DNA of 8,146 nucleotides from Deltaproteobacteria bacterium (GTDB lineage Bacteria > Campylobacterota_A > Desulfurellia > JAGGSF01): positions 1 through 8,146 of the forward strand of contig JAGGSF010000064.1 in the NCBI GenBank assembly GCA_021159235.1, written 5' to 3'. Under the pieces are notes generated by a model. It saw nothing but the letters and a program-made list of their open reading frames with translations, did not search any database and was not told where the DNA came from. Position numbers and translations under genes: made by a program. Within the stretch, counting starts at the first letter, position 1. Every line of letters begins with the position of its first letter. This document shows, piece after piece, positions 1,656 to 8,146 of this stretch.

Positions 1656-3326
1656 TCATATTAGGGGTGTTTTTTTTGAATTCCTGCCCAGTTTCTCTTC
1701 TATCTCCTTCTTTCTTAAAACAACCCGTTTAATTTTGCCGCTGATTGTCTTTGGCAGATTGTTGGTAAACTCTATTTCCCGTGGATATTTGTAGGGAGCT
1801 GTTTCTTTTTTTACATGATCCTGTAATTCCTTAACCAATTTATCGGATGGTTCATATCCTGGAGCAAGTATGACAAAAGCCTTTACAATATCTCCCCTCA
1901 CCGGATCGGGACTGGCAACCACCGCCGATTCTGCCACTGCAGGATGTGACTGTAACGCACTTTCCACTTCAAATGGTCCAATGCGGTAGCCAGAGGATAT
2001 AATTACATCATCCGCTCTACTATAAAACCAGAAATAACCATCATTATCCTTATAGGCTTTATCTCCTGTAAAATACCAGTCTCCTCTAAACACCTCTTCT
2101 GTGGATTCTCTATCCTTCCAGTATTCTTTAAATAGTCCTATGGGATGATGGGGTTTCACCTTTATAGCAATGTGACCTGGCTCGCCAACGGGCATCTCGT
2201 TCCCATCATCATCTATTATATGAATATCGTATCCCGGCACCGGTTTACCCATAGAACCATACTTTACAGCCATGCAGGGATAATTGGCTACTGCAACCAC
2301 AGATTCTGTTTGTCCATAACCATCGTAAATGGTCAGGCCCGTTGCCTCTTTCCATATTTTGATCACCTCCGGGTTTAACGGTTCACCTGCAGAGGTGCAG
2401 TGCCTCAAACTGCTGAAATCATACTGTTTTAAGTCCTCTAAGACAAGCATTCTGTAAACGGTGGGTGGAGCACAAAAACTGGTTATACCCTGTGTGGTCA
2501 GAAGCTTCAGTGTAATTTTAGGGTCAAATGCTCCTTCCGCATTATGCATGAATACCGCTGCTCCAATCTGCCACTGTCCATAGAGTTTTCCCCAGAAGGC
2601 TTTCAGCCAGCCGGTGTCCGATATAGTCCAGTGCAGGTCTGTGGGTTTCAGGTCATGCCAGAATTTTGCAGTAATGATATGGGCTAAGGCATAACTCTGT
2701 ACATGGGGTACCATTCGGGGATACTTTGTTGTACCGGAAGAAAAAGCAACGAGCAAGAGATCATCACTTTTTGTAGCTTCAACATCCTCCTTGGAAAGGT
2801 GGGGTGAAGACTTCTCCATTTCTATATCGTAGCTTATCCATTTATCCAGTTCTCCCCCAATGATGATCTTGTTCTTTACAGTAGGGCATTTCCCTATTAC
2901 CTTTTCTATCTTGGAGGCATTAGAACTGGAAGCCACAACTATCTTTGCTTCTGATTGGTTAATACGGTATTCAATATCCTGGGGAGTGAGAATACTGGGA
3001 GCAGGAGAAATAACCGCACCTATCTTATTGGCGCCAACAACAACCGCAAACCACTCCGGTATGCGGGGAACCATAACAAATATTATATCTCCCTTTTTTA
3101 CCCCTATATTTAGCAGTAGGTTGGCAAACCGATTGGACTGCTGGCTTATATCCCAGAATGTGTACTTTCTTATACTCTTTCCTGTTACATTCGCCCAGAC
3201 TAAAGCTAATTTTGTTCTATCCTCCGCCCATCTATCCACTACATCAAAACCAAAGTTGTAATACTCTGGAACCTCCAGTTTAAATGTTCTTTTCGTCTCT
3301 TCATAATCCATCATATTGTGTTCCAT
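1656..3326 (-). CDS. AMP-forming acyl-CoA synthetase (acetyl/medium-chain acyl-CoA ligase type)
   Basis: A 556-residue member of the ANL adenylating superfamily, which converts carboxylic acid, ATP and CoA to acyl-CoA, AMP and PPi. Visible motifs are the P-loop-like SSGTTKYPRM (about 196-205), YGQTES (337-342), the TGD aspartate (420-422), RADDVI hinge (437-442) and the C-terminal PKTISGK with its catalytic Lys (about 531). All core residues are present. The residue after the P-loop Thr pair is K, where G is common. Overall it resembles acetyl- and medium-chain acyl-CoA synthetases; the substrate cannot be fixed. The frame stays open to 3425, but ATG 3326 is chosen because GGAGG lies 6 bases before it and a promoter ends just upstream. 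Starting at 3425 would overlap RNase Z and the promoter. Two small genes follow. Together with the neighbouring AOR it could activate acids made from aldehydes. Confidence 0.9.
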   Translation of the reverse strand: MEHNMMDYEETKRTFKLEVPEYYNFGFDVVDRWAEDRTKLALVWANVTGKSIRKYTFWDISQQSNRFANLLLNIGVKKGDIIFVMVPRIPEWFAVVVGANKIGAVISPAPSILTPQDIEYRINQSEAKIVVASSSNASKIEKVIGKCPTVKNKIIIGGELDKWISYDIEMEKSSPHLSKEDVEATKSDDLLLVAFSSGTTKYPRMVPHVQSYALAHIITAKFWHDLKPTDLHWTISDTGWLKAFWGKLYGQWQIGAAVFMHNAEGAFDPKITLKLLTTQGITSFCAPPTVYRMLVLEDLKQYDFSSLRHCTSAGEPLNPEVIKIWKEATGLTIYDGYGQTESVVAVANYPCMAVKYGSMGKPVPGYDIHIIDDDGNEMPVGEPGHIAIKVKPHHPIGLFKEYWKDRESTEEVFRGDWYFTGDKAYKDNDGYFWFYSRADDVIISSGYRIGPFEVESALQSHPAVAESAVVASPDPVRGDIVKAFVILAPGYEPSDKLVKELQDHVKKETAPYKYPREIEFTNNLPKTISGKIKRVVLRKKEIEEKLGRNSKKTPLI

Positions 3327-3353
3327 TTTTTCCTCCATGATGATTTTTGCTGA

Positions 3354-3382
3354 ATGATACGCAGATTGCAATAATCTGTCAA
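3354..3382 (-). promoter_or_regulatory. Promoter of the acyl-CoA ligase operon with palindrome in its spacer
   Basis: Minus-strand TTGACA (3382-3377) and TATCAT (3359-3354) are 17 bases apart, one mismatch from consensus overall. The -10 ends 27 bases before the ligase ATG, giving an untranslated leader of about 20 bases with a GGAGG site. The spacer holds a perfect 6-bp inverted repeat, CAGATT-gcaat-AATCTG (3362-3378), lying between the two boxes and just touching the -35. This is a classic position for a repressor or a MerR-like activator. The regulator is not identified. The promoter begins directly after the rnz stop, so the ligase can be controlled apart from the AOR cluster. Confidence 0.75.
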
Positions 3383-3384
3383 TG

Positions 3385-4299
3385 TTATACTCTGTATTCT
3401 GCAAGATCTTCAGCCAGCATTGCACCGGGAAATATAGATCGGGCTTGAGAAAGTAGCTCTTTCAAGGAGTTGTAACGGGAACTAAAGTGAGTGAGTATCA
3501 ATTGTTTAACATTAGCTTCCCTGGCTACTCTACAGGCATCCTCCACGGTGGAGTGAAAACTCTTTTTAGCCAGGTTTTCGTCCTGTTTAATAAATGTTGC
3601 CTCGTGTATCAACAGGTCTGCTGATCTGGCCAGGATCACAGAATTTTTACAGTAGGTTGTGTCACTGCAATATACTATCTTTTTTCCAGGGATAGGTTCG
3701 CTTAAGAAATCTTTTCCATGAAAGATGCGACCATCACTTAGCTTAATAGTTTCACCCCTTTTTAATGCTCCATACAATGGACCCTCCGGGATATTGAGTC
3801 TGCGTGCTTTTTCTACCAGGAAATGAACTGAACTCTTTTTTTGAATGGAATATCCATGGCTTTCAATACCGTGGTTGAGTAAAGCGTGTTTTACAATATA
3901 GTTTTCGTTTTCGCATGCCACACCAAAGGAATCATCTGCAGAAAGTGTATGTATTTCAAGTTCATAAGGAGTATAGGTATGTGTTATCCTTTGAATCCCT
4001 TTTATAAAAGAATCGATACCTTCTGGTCCATATATCTCTACTTTACTCTTTGCATCTTCCATTCCCCGTGTAGCCAGCAGTCCTGGAAGACCGAAGGTAT
4101 GATCTCCATGAAGATGAGAGATAAATATCTTTTCCAATCTGGATAATTTTAAGGATGTTCTTCTAATCTGATGCTGAGTGCCCTCTCCACAATCCAGTAA
4201 CCAGAATTTACCGCTTTCCGGGAAACTGATGGCAATCGAAGATACATTACGCTTCAAGGTAGGAATAGCTGAACCTGTTCCAAGAAATATGATCTTCAA
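3385..4299 (-). CDS. rnz: Ribonuclease Z (tRNA 3' endonuclease)
   Basis: A 304-residue metallo-beta-lactamase-fold enzyme of the short RNase Z type, which cuts the 3' trailer from tRNA precursors. It opens with MKIIFLGTGSAIPT, typical of the family. The zinc motif SHLHGDHTFGLPGLL (61-75) supplies H62, H64, D66 and H67; further ligands are likely H143 (LNHG), D213 (CSDT) and H271 (THFSSRY). FHST at 248-251 is also typical. The PEGPLYGALKRGE stretch (171-183) fits the flexible arm that grips tRNA. The start is TTG, lying directly after the macro gene's TAA; the gene's own tail GGCGAGGT serves as binding site. The conserved N-terminus supports this start. The weak start and zero spacing suggest translation coupled to the macro gene. 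The family also shows phosphodiesterase activity. Confidence 0.95.
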   Translation of the reverse strand: MKIIFLGTGSAIPTLKRNVSSIAISFPESGKFWLLDCGEGTQHQIRRTSLKLSRLEKIFISHLHGDHTFGLPGLLATRGMEDAKSKVEIYGPEGIDSFIKGIQRITHTYTPYELEIHTLSADDSFGVACENENYIVKHALLNHGIESHGYSIQKKSSVHFLVEKARRLNIPEGPLYGALKRGETIKLSDGRIFHGKDFLSEPIPGKKIVYCSDTTYCKNSVILARSADLLIHEATFIKQDENLAKKSFHSTVEDACRVAREANVKQLILTHFSSRYNSLKELLSQARSIFPGAMLAEDLAEYRV

Positions 4300-4839
4300 T
4301 TAACCTCGCCTTTTATCTGCTTCTTTAACAAACAAGGAAGATGTAAGTTCGTCTATATTGCAGAGATGAACCTCTTCTACAGATGTTTTTTTCTTCATAA
4401 AATGGACAACTGTATTGAATATAATAGGCACAGCCTTTTCTTTTGGGAAACCGAATATACCGGAGCTAATTGCAGGCAAGGATACAGACCTTAGATTATG
4501 CTCTGCTGCCACTTCTAATGCACTTTTTACTGCACTTTCCAGTTTCTTCTCTTCCTCTCCTTCTCCCCACCTGGGCCCAACGGCATGGATTACATACTTT
4601 GCCTTTAATTTTCCACCCGTGGTAATTGCTGCTTTTCCCACAGGAACATAACCGATCCTGTTGCTTTCCTCCTGAATAATCCTGCCCCCTTTTCTTACTA
4701 TTGCTCCTGCCACTCCACCCCCATGCTGAAGATGAGAATTTGCAGCATTAACAATAGCATCCACATCCTCCTCCGTCAGATCACCCTTAATAACCTTCAA
4801 TATTTTGCTGTCTATTTTAACTTCTTTTAGAACCTCCAT
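4300..4839 (-). CDS. Macro-domain protein (ADP-ribose binding/hydrolysing)
   Basis: A 179-residue single-domain protein. The ADP-ribose pocket motifs are all present: KGDLT (18-22), [18 protein letters not shown] (30-47), the GPRWG strand end (88-92) and the phosphate loop SSGIFGFP (125-132). It resembles archaeal AF1521-type macro domains more than TARG1 types. Members bind ADP-ribose and hydrolyse ADP-ribose-1''-phosphate, O-acetyl-ADP-ribose or ADP-ribosylated carboxylates; which applies here is unknown. ATG at 4839 has a strong GGAGGT site lying within the 3' end of the preceding flavoprotein gene (23-base overlap). No transmembrane segment or signal peptide is seen. Placement between a redox flavoprotein and RNase Z hints at a role in NAD-derived or tRNA-derived metabolites. 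Confidence 0.92.
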
Positions 4840-5827
4840 AACTACCTCCTCGCTTTAACATCTCTTCATATTCATAGGCATATTTTCCATTCTTTGCTCC
4901 TGCAAACATAATTCCTCTTTTCACCAGTTCCATAGCTAAGTACTCACTGGCAGCCATCCCCGCACTTGCTCCCTCCGCCGCTGCATTTATCACATGAAAT
5001 GGTTTCCCTATCATATCTCCACAGGCAAATATACCTTGTTTGGAGGTCATAAATTTCTCATCTACCCATACATGATTGTTTTCTATCTTTAAACCCATTT
5101 CCTTTGCCAAGTCTAAGTTTGGGGAAGTACCCACACAGATGACCACCCAATCCACGGGAACTGTTTTTTTCTCTTTCGTCTTGTTATTGACCAATACAAC
5201 TTCTTCTACATGATCGCTGCCCCTTATTTCCAAGAGTTCTGTGTTGTACATTACATTTACACCAGTTTTTTGAAGTAAATCAGTCATGCGGGGATATGTT
5301 CGTAGATACTCCTGTCTGTGAATCATAATCACATCCTTAGCTACAGTTTTAGATAAAATTGCGCTCTTTGCAGTTGAATTTCCACCACCGACAACCAGCA
5401 CTCTTTTCCCTTCAAAGTTTTTGTAATCCCTTTTTGCATAGTATGAAACACCTTTTCCAATAAACTTATCTTCTCCCTTTGCGCCCAACTTTTGCATTCT
5501 TGCACCGCAAGCCAGTATTATGGCTGGTGTTTGGTATTCTCCCCCGTCTGTTCGCACGATTTTTTTATCGGGGTCTATAAAAGTGACATTTTCACCTCTT
5601 ATTTCCACGCCCAAATTTTCCACCTGTTTGCGCATTTTCTCCGTTAACTCTTCTCCATCCCCGGGCAAGAAACCAGGATAATTTAACACTGTATAAGCAA
5701 TGGAAAGCTGTCCTCCTATCCAATTTCCTTCAAAGATAGTTGTTCTCCACTTATCTAAAGCGCTGTATATACCTGCTGAAAGTCCTGCTGGACCCCCACC
5801 CACAATAATTACATCCCTTTCTTCCAC
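4817..5827 (-). CDS. Thioredoxin-reductase-like FAD/NAD(P) oxidoreductase lacking the CxxC disulfide
   Basis: A 336-residue two-dinucleotide-fold flavoprotein with a TrxB-like layout. FAD binding is shown by GGGPAG (10-15), IGGQ (37-40), NYPGF (49-53) and the C-terminal ACGD (268-271). The NAD(P) domain shows GGGNSTA (147-153) and HRQEYLR (170-176), where NADPH-type TrxB has HRRxxxR. The redox site aligns without gaps to E. coli GVSACATCD, but CATC reads YAKR (Y130-R133), so no disulfide can form and it is unlikely to reduce thioredoxin. The tail after about 300 ends in a Tyr/Gly-rich stretch (YGGSKRS). Related Cys-less enzymes include TrxR-like ferredoxin-NADP reductases, though those differ near GGQ. 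The start is GTG with GAGGGGG ahead, 10 bases after the AOR stop. It may move electrons between NAD(P)H and the AOR Fe-S subunit (inference). Confidence 0.88.
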
Positions 5828-5837
5828 TTCTGCCCCC

Positions 5838-7604
5838 TCATTTTAATTCAAGAAGTATCTTTTTAAAATAACTTAACGCCTTTGAGAAATAATCTCTTTT
5901 TAATGCACCAAGTGAAGATGGAGTCTGGAATATGCGCTCCGGAAGTCGTAAATTATCAACAGAGAATCCTTCTCTTATTTTGAAGTTGAATTTGTCCTTG
6001 TAAATTCTATCACCGATGTTCTGCAATTCATCCTGGGAGAGATCAAAACCTGCTACCCTTAACGCAGAAATAACCACATCTGGCACGTATATGCGACGGG
6101 CAAAAAAACAAACTACCAGACTGGAAAGTACCTGCCTCCATTTTTCTTCTTTAATCAACCTGTCTACCATATCCTCCGGTTCTATTTCTTCTTTTCTCTC
6201 ATACGCCTTTTCATCTATACTATAGCCTGCATTATCCAGATGGCCATGTCGAGCTCCGATAAGAAATCCCAGATAGCAACCATGACCAGTGTGATAACCG
6301 GGCATCTCATTTCCACCAAAAGCCAGAGCAAACTCCCTTCCTCCATAGATGTTGCTTGCATAATCTACTCCCTTTGCCAGGGCTCTATAAAATTCATTGG
6401 GTTGATTGACAATTTTCCTCACCATTTTCATGTAAGTTTCTCCATCTCCCCATTTTGGTTCAAGCCCCATCGTTTCCCTTTTACCTATCAGTTTCTTTTG
6501 GTAAGCCTCTGTAGCCCATGCCAGAACAACACCTGTACTCACCGCATCTATACCCAGGATCTCCACCTCATCCATGAGCTTCAGAAAAACAGATGCATCG
6601 CTAATTCCCAGCATTGTGCCTAATGCGTATGTCGGTTCATAATCGTAAGATATCATAGACGTTTTATAGAAATACGGTTCATCCTCATAAGGCTCCCGCA
6701 ATGCGGCTAAATGGATGCATCCTACCGGACAATGAGAGCAGGCTAACCTTCTTCCCAAAAAATGTTCAGCAAACGACTCCCCAGATATCTTTTTCATTTC
6801 GTCTAACCCTATCTGCTGCAGGTTCCTTACAGGTAGCGCTCCCTTTTTAGCCAGAGGGTTTATATTGGATTGAGTTCCCAAATCATGATATTTTTTCATT
6901 GCCTCAGACCTTGTGGCCTCATTAAAAATGTGGTTGTACACCTCCTTATAGAGTCTGGCATTTTCTACAGGAAGAGATCTTCTGCCAGAGATGATGATTG
7001 CCTTTAGATTTTTACTACCGAATACTGCTCCCAGGCCCAACCTCCCAAAATGCCTATAAGATTCTGTAATTACACCGGCGTAGGTAACCAGTTTCTCTCC
7101 CGCTCTTCCTATACGCATGATGGTGCGCAAGCCCTCACCTTTTTCTCTTTCTCTGATTACCCTCCCCACCGTAAACGAGCTTTTCATTCCCCACAGGGAA
7201 GAGGCATCTCTAAAATGAACCCCATCCTCATGAATGGCTATATAAACAGGATAATCACTCTTCCCCTTGATTACCATTGCTCCATAGCCTGCCAGTCTCA
7301 TCGCTATCGCACTTCTTCCGCCACAGTGACTTTCTCCTAAATTTCCAGTATGAGGAGATTTAAACAGAACTGTTGTTTTACTGGCAACCGGAAAGAGCGC
7401 ATTTAATGGCCCAACGGCGAAGATAATGGGGTTCTCTGGTGAAAAGGGATCACAACCTTTAGGGCATTCTTCAAGGAGTAGTTTTATTCCCGCGCCTACA
7501 CCCCCTAACCTTTCTTCAAATACATCACTCCTATCCTCTATATGAAAGGAATTTCTGGAGAGGTTTATATATAATACATTTTTTAAGGGGTCATTCTTTA
7601 ACAT
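5838..7604 (-). CDS. Aldehyde:ferredoxin oxidoreductase family, tungsten/molybdenum-pterin catalytic subunit
   Basis: A 588-residue AOR-family protein, close to the usual 600. It carries a bis-pterin W or Mo centre and one [4Fe-4S] cluster, and interconverts aldehydes and carboxylic acids in characterised members. Cluster ligands are C289, C292 and C296 (CSHCPVGC) plus C499, matching the spacing known for Pyrococcus AOR. The pterin-site stretch GAVFGSKNLKA (192-202), GIDAVSTG (351-358) and RHGHLDNAGYSID (452-464) are all present. The N-terminus (VLYINLS, then ERLGGVGAGIKLLLEE) is closer to the YdhV-like branch than to archaeal Aor, which leaves the substrate open. ATG 7604 has GGAGG six bases upstream, inside the end of the Fe-S gene (14-base overlap). 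No cofactor-assembly genes are in the window. Cytoplasmic, with no signal peptide. Confidence 0.93.
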   Translation of the reverse strand: MLKNDPLKNVLYINLSRNSFHIEDRSDVFEERLGGVGAGIKLLLEECPKGCDPFSPENPIIFAVGPLNALFPVASKTTVLFKSPHTGNLGESHCGGRSAIAMRLAGYGAMVIKGKSDYPVYIAIHEDGVHFRDASSLWGMKSSFTVGRVIREREKGEGLRTIMRIGRAGEKLVTYAGVITESYRHFGRLGLGAVFGSKNLKAIIISGRRSLPVENARLYKEVYNHIFNEATRSEAMKKYHDLGTQSNINPLAKKGALPVRNLQQIGLDEMKKISGESFAEHFLGRRLACSHCPVGCIHLAALREPYEDEPYFYKTSMISYDYEPTYALGTMLGISDASVFLKLMDEVEILGIDAVSTGVVLAWATEAYQKKLIGKRETMGLEPKWGDGETYMKMVRKIVNQPNEFYRALAKGVDYASNIYGGREFALAFGGNEMPGYHTGHGCYLGFLIGARHGHLDNAGYSIDEKAYERKEEIEPEDMVDRLIKEEKWRQVLSSLVVCFFARRIYVPDVVISALRVAGFDLSQDELQNIGDRIYKDKFNFKIREGFSVDNLRLPERIFQTPSSLGALKRDYFSKALSYFKKILLELK

Positions 7605-8004
7605 CTATTTCCTCCATTTTCAATACACCATGTGGACAGAAATCTACACAATATCCACAATGGGTACAGATCATGGGTTTATTTATCTCCTCGTTCCAGA
7701 ACACTGCTCCCACAATGCAGGCTTCCATGCACAACTTACATCCGATACAGTCAGAGGCTACAAGCGTAACCCCTCCACCTTTTCTTTTCTTTAATGCCCT
7801 TGTGGGACAAACTTTTGAACATTGAGGGTCTTTACACGCTCGGCATACAACAACGACAAAACCTCTCTCCAATCCACCGGCAGATCTTACGCCAATGCAA
7901 GAGCGAGACAATCCACCCTCGCCAAATCTCCTCGCACAGGCAAACATACAGGATTGACAACCCAAACATTTATCTGCATCTACAACTGCAATTCTTTTCG
8001 CCAT
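7591..8004 (-). CDS. Four-[4Fe-4S] ferredoxin-like electron-transfer subunit of the AOR
   Basis: A 137-residue protein with 17 cysteines, 16 of them in four cluster motifs: CLGCQSCMFAC (13-23), CRACKDPQCSKVC (54-66), CIGCKLCMEAC (86-96) and CTHCGYCVDFC (113-123). C36 is the extra one. The CxxCxxxxCxxxC motif and the overall layout match DmsB/YdhY-like subunits and the small subunits of AOR complexes such as AorA of Aromatoleum and WorS types. It should pass electrons between the AOR large subunit and a partner. Its stop overlaps the AOR start by 14 bases, implying coupled synthesis in a fixed ratio. ATG 8004 has GAGAGG five bases upstream. No Tat signal is seen, so it acts in the cytoplasm. 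Confidence 0.92.
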   Translation of the reverse strand: MAKRIAVVDADKCLGCQSCMFACARRFGEGGLSRSCIGVRSAGGLERGFVVVVCRACKDPQCSKVCPTRALKKRKGGGVTLVASDCIGCKLCMEACIVGAVFWNEEINKPMICTHCGYCVDFCPHGVLKMEEIDVKE

Positions 8005-8134: not shown

Positions 8135-8146
8135 ATACAAAAAGCG

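Follow-up and report, generated by a model that had tools for sequence, protein, structure and literature searches.

A TrxB-type flavoprotein gene without the catalytic dithiol adjoins a widespread Fe-S/AOR gene pair in one bacterial lineage

The window, i.e., the whole stretch of 8,146 nucleotides that was analysed, carries on its minus strand three closely packed genes that encode a small iron-sulfur protein, an AOR/WOR large subunit and a TrxB-type flavoprotein (Table 1). The first two share 14 bases, and a gap of 10 bases separates the AOR gene from that of the flavoprotein. The coordinates, the overlap, the gap and the tight packing given in an earlier note on this DNA are all exact, and the order Fe-S subunit, AOR and FAD protein that it had proposed agrees with the open reading frames as well as with the HMM families. 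A Shine-Dalgarno-like sequence precedes each of the three genes, reading GAGGGGG in the case of the flavoprotein. Since the flavoprotein gene in turn overlaps the macro-domain gene by 23 bases, the co-directional run extends further through the macro, RNase Z and acyl-CoA ligase genes. For the ligase, the true start probably lies within the open reading frame listed in Table 1.

Table 1. Genes of the co-directional run and their positions in the window.
Feature	Position	Strand	HMM match
Fe-S subunit, 137 aa	8004-7591	minus	Fer4 repeats
AOR/WOR large subunit, 588 aa	7604-5838	minus	AFOR_N + AFOR_C
TrxB-type FAD/NAD(P) flavoprotein, 336 aa, GTG start, YAKR replacing CxxC	5827-4817	minus	Pyr_redox_2
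Macro-domain (ADP-ribose-binding) protein	4300-4839	minus	
Ribonuclease Z (RNase Z)	3385-4299	minus	
AMP-forming acyl-CoA ligase, MbcS-like	1656-3425	minus	

The GC3 of the trio is 35-39, compared to 34-43 in the remaining window, and base composition gives neither a signal of foreign origin nor a mark of recent acquisition of the three genes. It also gives no indication of an assembly chimera, on a contig of just 8.1 kb. The contig stops at 8146 and the genes upstream of the Fe-S subunit lie beyond the visible sequence. At the other end of the window, overlapping genes for an AbrB/MazE-type antitoxin and a PIN-domain toxin are found (402-1047), as well as a small Trm112-like protein and a weak DUF7645-like protein, whose ends overlap (1261-1630).

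The Fe-S subunit contains 16 ligand cysteines arranged in four cluster motifs (Cys 13/16/19/23, 54/57/62/66, 86/89/92/96 and 113/116/119/123). The AOR scores 227 bits with PF02730 and 215 bits with PF01314. Its residues Cys 289/292/296 and 499, Glu323 and His455 are invariant within the subfamily, and the Glu and His match the catalytic pair in the alignment with solved AOR. The nearest solved structure is 1aor with 242 bits; none is close. When 386 genomes were searched, the relatives of this AOR formed a separate block of 22 members with 40-65% identity, beyond which the next AORs reach only ~34% identity or less. A scan of GTDB genomes using the alignment of the 22 gave 80 further loci (56-64%) in Thermodesulfobacteriota, Nitrospirota, Chloroflexota, Atribacterota, Planctomycetota, Bipolaricaulota, Thermoproteota, Bathyarchaeota, Asgard and ANME-type archaea and others. 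Near-invariant motifs within the subfamily (L068-L147) are GESHxGGR, YRHFGR, YDxE and GYxTG.

Among the 102 related loci, which include at least one genome twice (L040 and L075 are identical), the Fe-S gene lies directly upstream of the AOR gene in 100. The exceptions are L078, which is cut by a contig end, and L091, where the Fe-S gene is missing. This AOR relative from Methanoxibalbensis (L091 9400-10060) is the sole case of its kind among the 102. No other recurrent neighbour of the Fe-S/AOR pair was found in the 102 loci. The pair forms a distinct subfamily that is very widespread in bacteria and archaea. It is a robust, free-standing two-gene module, which would be Class II in the scheme of PMC13328260. 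The known Class II WORs (WorL and WorS; P. furiosus WOR5/ASOR and Caldicellulosiruptor GOR) likewise consist of an AOR and an adjacent small subunit with four [4Fe-4S] clusters, and they hand their electrons to ferredoxin (PMC13328260). In difference to these enzymes, the subfamily of the window is far from any solved AOR and the window has an extra flavoprotein gene.

The best-matching family of this flavoprotein is TrxB, as the earlier note had supposed. It scores 162 bits with PF07992 (Pyr_redox_2) and 255 bits with TIGR01292, the latter being under the curated cut-off of 343. The note had regarded the protein as single-domain, but residues 5-297 align on 9-307 of 4zn0 and cover both TrxB Rossmann domains, so that the FAD and the NAD(P) domain are both present. 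The protein retains GGGPAGL and GIFACGD as FAD motifs and GGGNS as nucleotide motif. However, compared to low-molecular-weight TrxB, to which it is homologous over both domains with up to 44% identity, the flavoprotein carries YAKR at the CxxC position, reads HRQxxxR where the NADPH (2'-phosphate) motif usually is HRRxxxR, has lost the RQ pair after the last FAD (GD) motif and has a tail of ~37 residues. It contains three cysteines in all, which are scattered, and CxxC is present in all but one of the 78 other aligned homologs. As the CxxC pair is gone, the flavoprotein cannot reduce thioredoxin in the usual way. The genome also carries a normal TrxB gene next to a thioredoxin gene.

In ~480 genomes, 50 of them with this AOR subfamily, the nearest relatives of the flavoprotein showed at most 44% identity and no ortholog was present; nor was one found among the viral contigs and plasmids searched or in the phyla of two other genomes searched. 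In the tree it forms an end branch of 2.13 changes per site and does not fall among the TrxB proteins of its own class. This position does not support a duplication of the TrxB of that class, with the reservation that the long branch makes the placement unsure. A grouping with a CxxC-less Jordarchaeum protein (L155b, support 89/69) was flagged as a long-branch join and set aside. In that archaeon (G424), the gene concerned is a second TrxB-like gene with YYLSSP in place of CxxC that adjoins an ordinary TrxB gene, and no AOR gene adjoins it in the sequence examined. A single-sequence AlphaFold model of the window flavoprotein had a mean pLDDT of 38 and was discarded.

A long branch, a lost catalytic pair and the lack of an ortholog would be expected as well for a decayed, functionless TrxB copy that happens to lie in the operon. 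We regard this as very improbable, since the frame is open over its full 336 aa, the FAD and nucleotide motifs are intact and the ribosome-binding site is good. A TrxB fold without the dithiol is present in the TrxR-like ferredoxin-NAD(P) reductases of the YumC/Chlorobaculum type, which exchange electrons with an iron-sulfur partner. Among solved proteins the flavoprotein scored 175 bits with TrxB and 107 bits with members of this reductase family; it is closer to TrxB and therefore the dithiol was likely lost convergently. TrxR-like NAD(P) reductase occurs in green sulfur bacteria (PMC11269200), and the TrxB-type FFTR takes electrons from ferredoxin (PMC12796991). A TrxB that lacks the dithiol and keeps its FAD and nucleotide motifs should use some partner different from thioredoxin for electron exchange with NAD(P)H. 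Because TrxB-type proteins that work with ferredoxin are known, the likeliest role of the flavoprotein, by analogy, would be that of an NAD(P)/iron-sulfur reductase.

Conserved adjacency of the three genes in other genomes, by which the earlier note had proposed to check the module, is not found: a TrxB-type gene adjoins the Fe-S/AOR pair in none of the 102 related loci, 90 of which extend at least 1.1 kb downstream. This is the reciprocal of the criterion in the note, a flavoprotein lying mostly away from AOR genes, for which the genomes searched gave no ortholog to count. The count of none in 102 excludes a standing three-gene module, and the flavoprotein does not regularly accompany this AOR subfamily. 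In the 102 loci a single pyridine-nucleotide flavoprotein is packed beside the pair; it is encoded by a dihydrolipoamide-dehydrogenase-like gene of an Atribacterota genome (L080). This gene (L080 1693-3090) lies 36 bases upstream of the pair, and the near relatives L077 and L085 have no such gene at that place. With no TrxB-type neighbour and this lone flavoprotein among the relatives, the linkage seen here is peculiar to the lineage of the window. The best explanation is that the flavoprotein was added to the pair either within this lineage or within an unsampled donor.

The congener G001 retains the macro, RNase Z and ligase genes with 80-91% identity. In G001 a promoter-like region of its own precedes the macro gene, and a divergent gene lies beyond it. 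The Fe-S, AOR and flavoprotein genes were absent from the G001 genome at the similarity level searched, and in a second congener, G002, searches with the RNase Z, this AOR and the flavoprotein all came back empty. Since the trio is absent from G001 and the downstream genes are kept, the most likely history is a joint gain or a joint loss of the three genes at this site.

These observations have to be weighed against the possibility that the flavoprotein gene is in the operon by chance and its product has a redox partner of its own, e.g., ferredoxin, flavodoxin or a peroxide system, and that the pair uses ferredoxin like the other Class II WORs. The lack of a TrxB-type neighbour in all relatives speaks for this, as do the random nature of the other neighbours of the pair and the gene in L080, whose absence from close relatives indicates that flavoproteins now and then land beside the pair. 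The adjacency was seen once, and the downstream macro, RNase Z and ligase genes, which are packed equally tightly, have unrelated functions and do not encode AOR subunits. In addition, with no ortholog and a very long branch there is no conservation that would argue for a working interface. On the other hand, the joint absence of the trio from the sister species fits a joint move or loss, and a reductase linked to AOR would need just such a change of partner as the loss of the dithiol implies. We consider the chance neighbour a serious possibility that falls a little short of even, nearly as likely as the role as NAD(P)/iron-sulfur reductase.

Elsewhere in the genome of the window a genuine AorABC-type operon is encoded (contig C56, L151, 168-3696), which makes the window module a second AOR. 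The AOR of C56 is a PfAOR/AorB-type protein that scores 716 bits to 9mqx, and the best solved match of its AorC is the Aromatoleum AorC (8c0z, E 6e-48). Its AorA has ~24 residues more at the C-terminus than the window Fe-S subunit, which ends at residue 137, where the AorA filament helix starts. This C-terminal helix drives the polymerisation of AorA into filaments (PMC10413684). C56 also bears a fragment of a WtpC-type tungstate-transporter ATPase and a radical SAM/SPASM gene. An Fe-S and AOR pair like that of the C56 operon is also found in the congener G001, on contig C67.

Class III is recognized by a gene for an FAD/NAD(P)-binding domain (IPR023753, Pfam Pyr_redox_2) beside WorLS (PMC13328260). 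In the window a PF07992 gene lies 10 bases downstream of the AOR gene, and by the gene-context rule the trio would be filed as Class III (WorLSN). It shares with the Class III AorABC of Aromatoleum the order Fe-S subunit, W subunit and FAD protein and the four-cluster small subunit. The parallel to AorABC that the earlier note had drawn thus stands for the gene order and is possible for the function, but it does not extend to an AorC-like flavoprotein. The window flavoprotein is TrxB-type and 25% identical to the AorC of C56, whereas that of Aromatoleum is of the AorC/NADH-oxidase type; the small subunit lacks the AorA helix, the AOR and AorB are of different subfamilies, and the third gene is unconserved in the window subfamily. 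Although gene order and gene-context rule are the same, it is therefore highly unlikely that the trio is a true Class III WOR that shares homology with AorABC, has an AorC-type NADH subunit and forms filaments. With a genuine AorABC in the same genome, the analogy to AorC is functional at best, and the flavin partner in the window is of different stock from AorC and not conserved. The Class IV bifurcating WORs (WorLSABC) also have an AOR and a four-cluster small subunit in common with the window. The earlier suggestion that two acceptors might be coupled by electron bifurcation found no backing, as no WorA, WorB or WorC-type gene lies within the window, whose upstream side ends at 8146.

Taken as a whole explanation, a Class II WorS and WorL pair together with a lineage-specific, dithiol-less, TrxB-derived NAD(P)/iron-sulfur reductase is in our judgement an even call. 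In such a system the AOR would oxidise an aldehyde (or reduce an acid) at a W/Mo bis-pterin, and the electrons would pass from the W-pterin via the [4Fe-4S] cluster of the AOR to the four clusters of the small subunit. The flavoprotein, probably co-transcribed with the pair in this one lineage, would then swap electrons between NAD(P) and an iron-sulfur partner. For this it might dock on the Fe-S small subunit, taking the place of AorC by convergence, or the exchange might proceed via free ferredoxin. The metal (W), the substrate, the co-transcription and the electron route of the trio are those that we infer. The further-reaching idea of a second, convergent wiring of AOR to NAD(P), in which a dithiol-less TrxB was recruited as flavin subunit of a Fe-S/AOR pair that does without such a subunit elsewhere, is put forward tentatively and is somewhat less likely than not.

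If the flavoprotein is indeed a working subunit, the coupling of AORs to NAD(P) would have arisen repeatedly, from flavoproteins of different stock, and the TrxB fold would be convertible into a reductase for an iron-sulfur chain. The Fe-S/AOR subfamily itself, for which no close solved structure was found, spans from Asgard and ANME archaea to Chloroflexota. Whichever reading holds, the enzymology of this subfamily would be worth more than the single flavoprotein neighbour.
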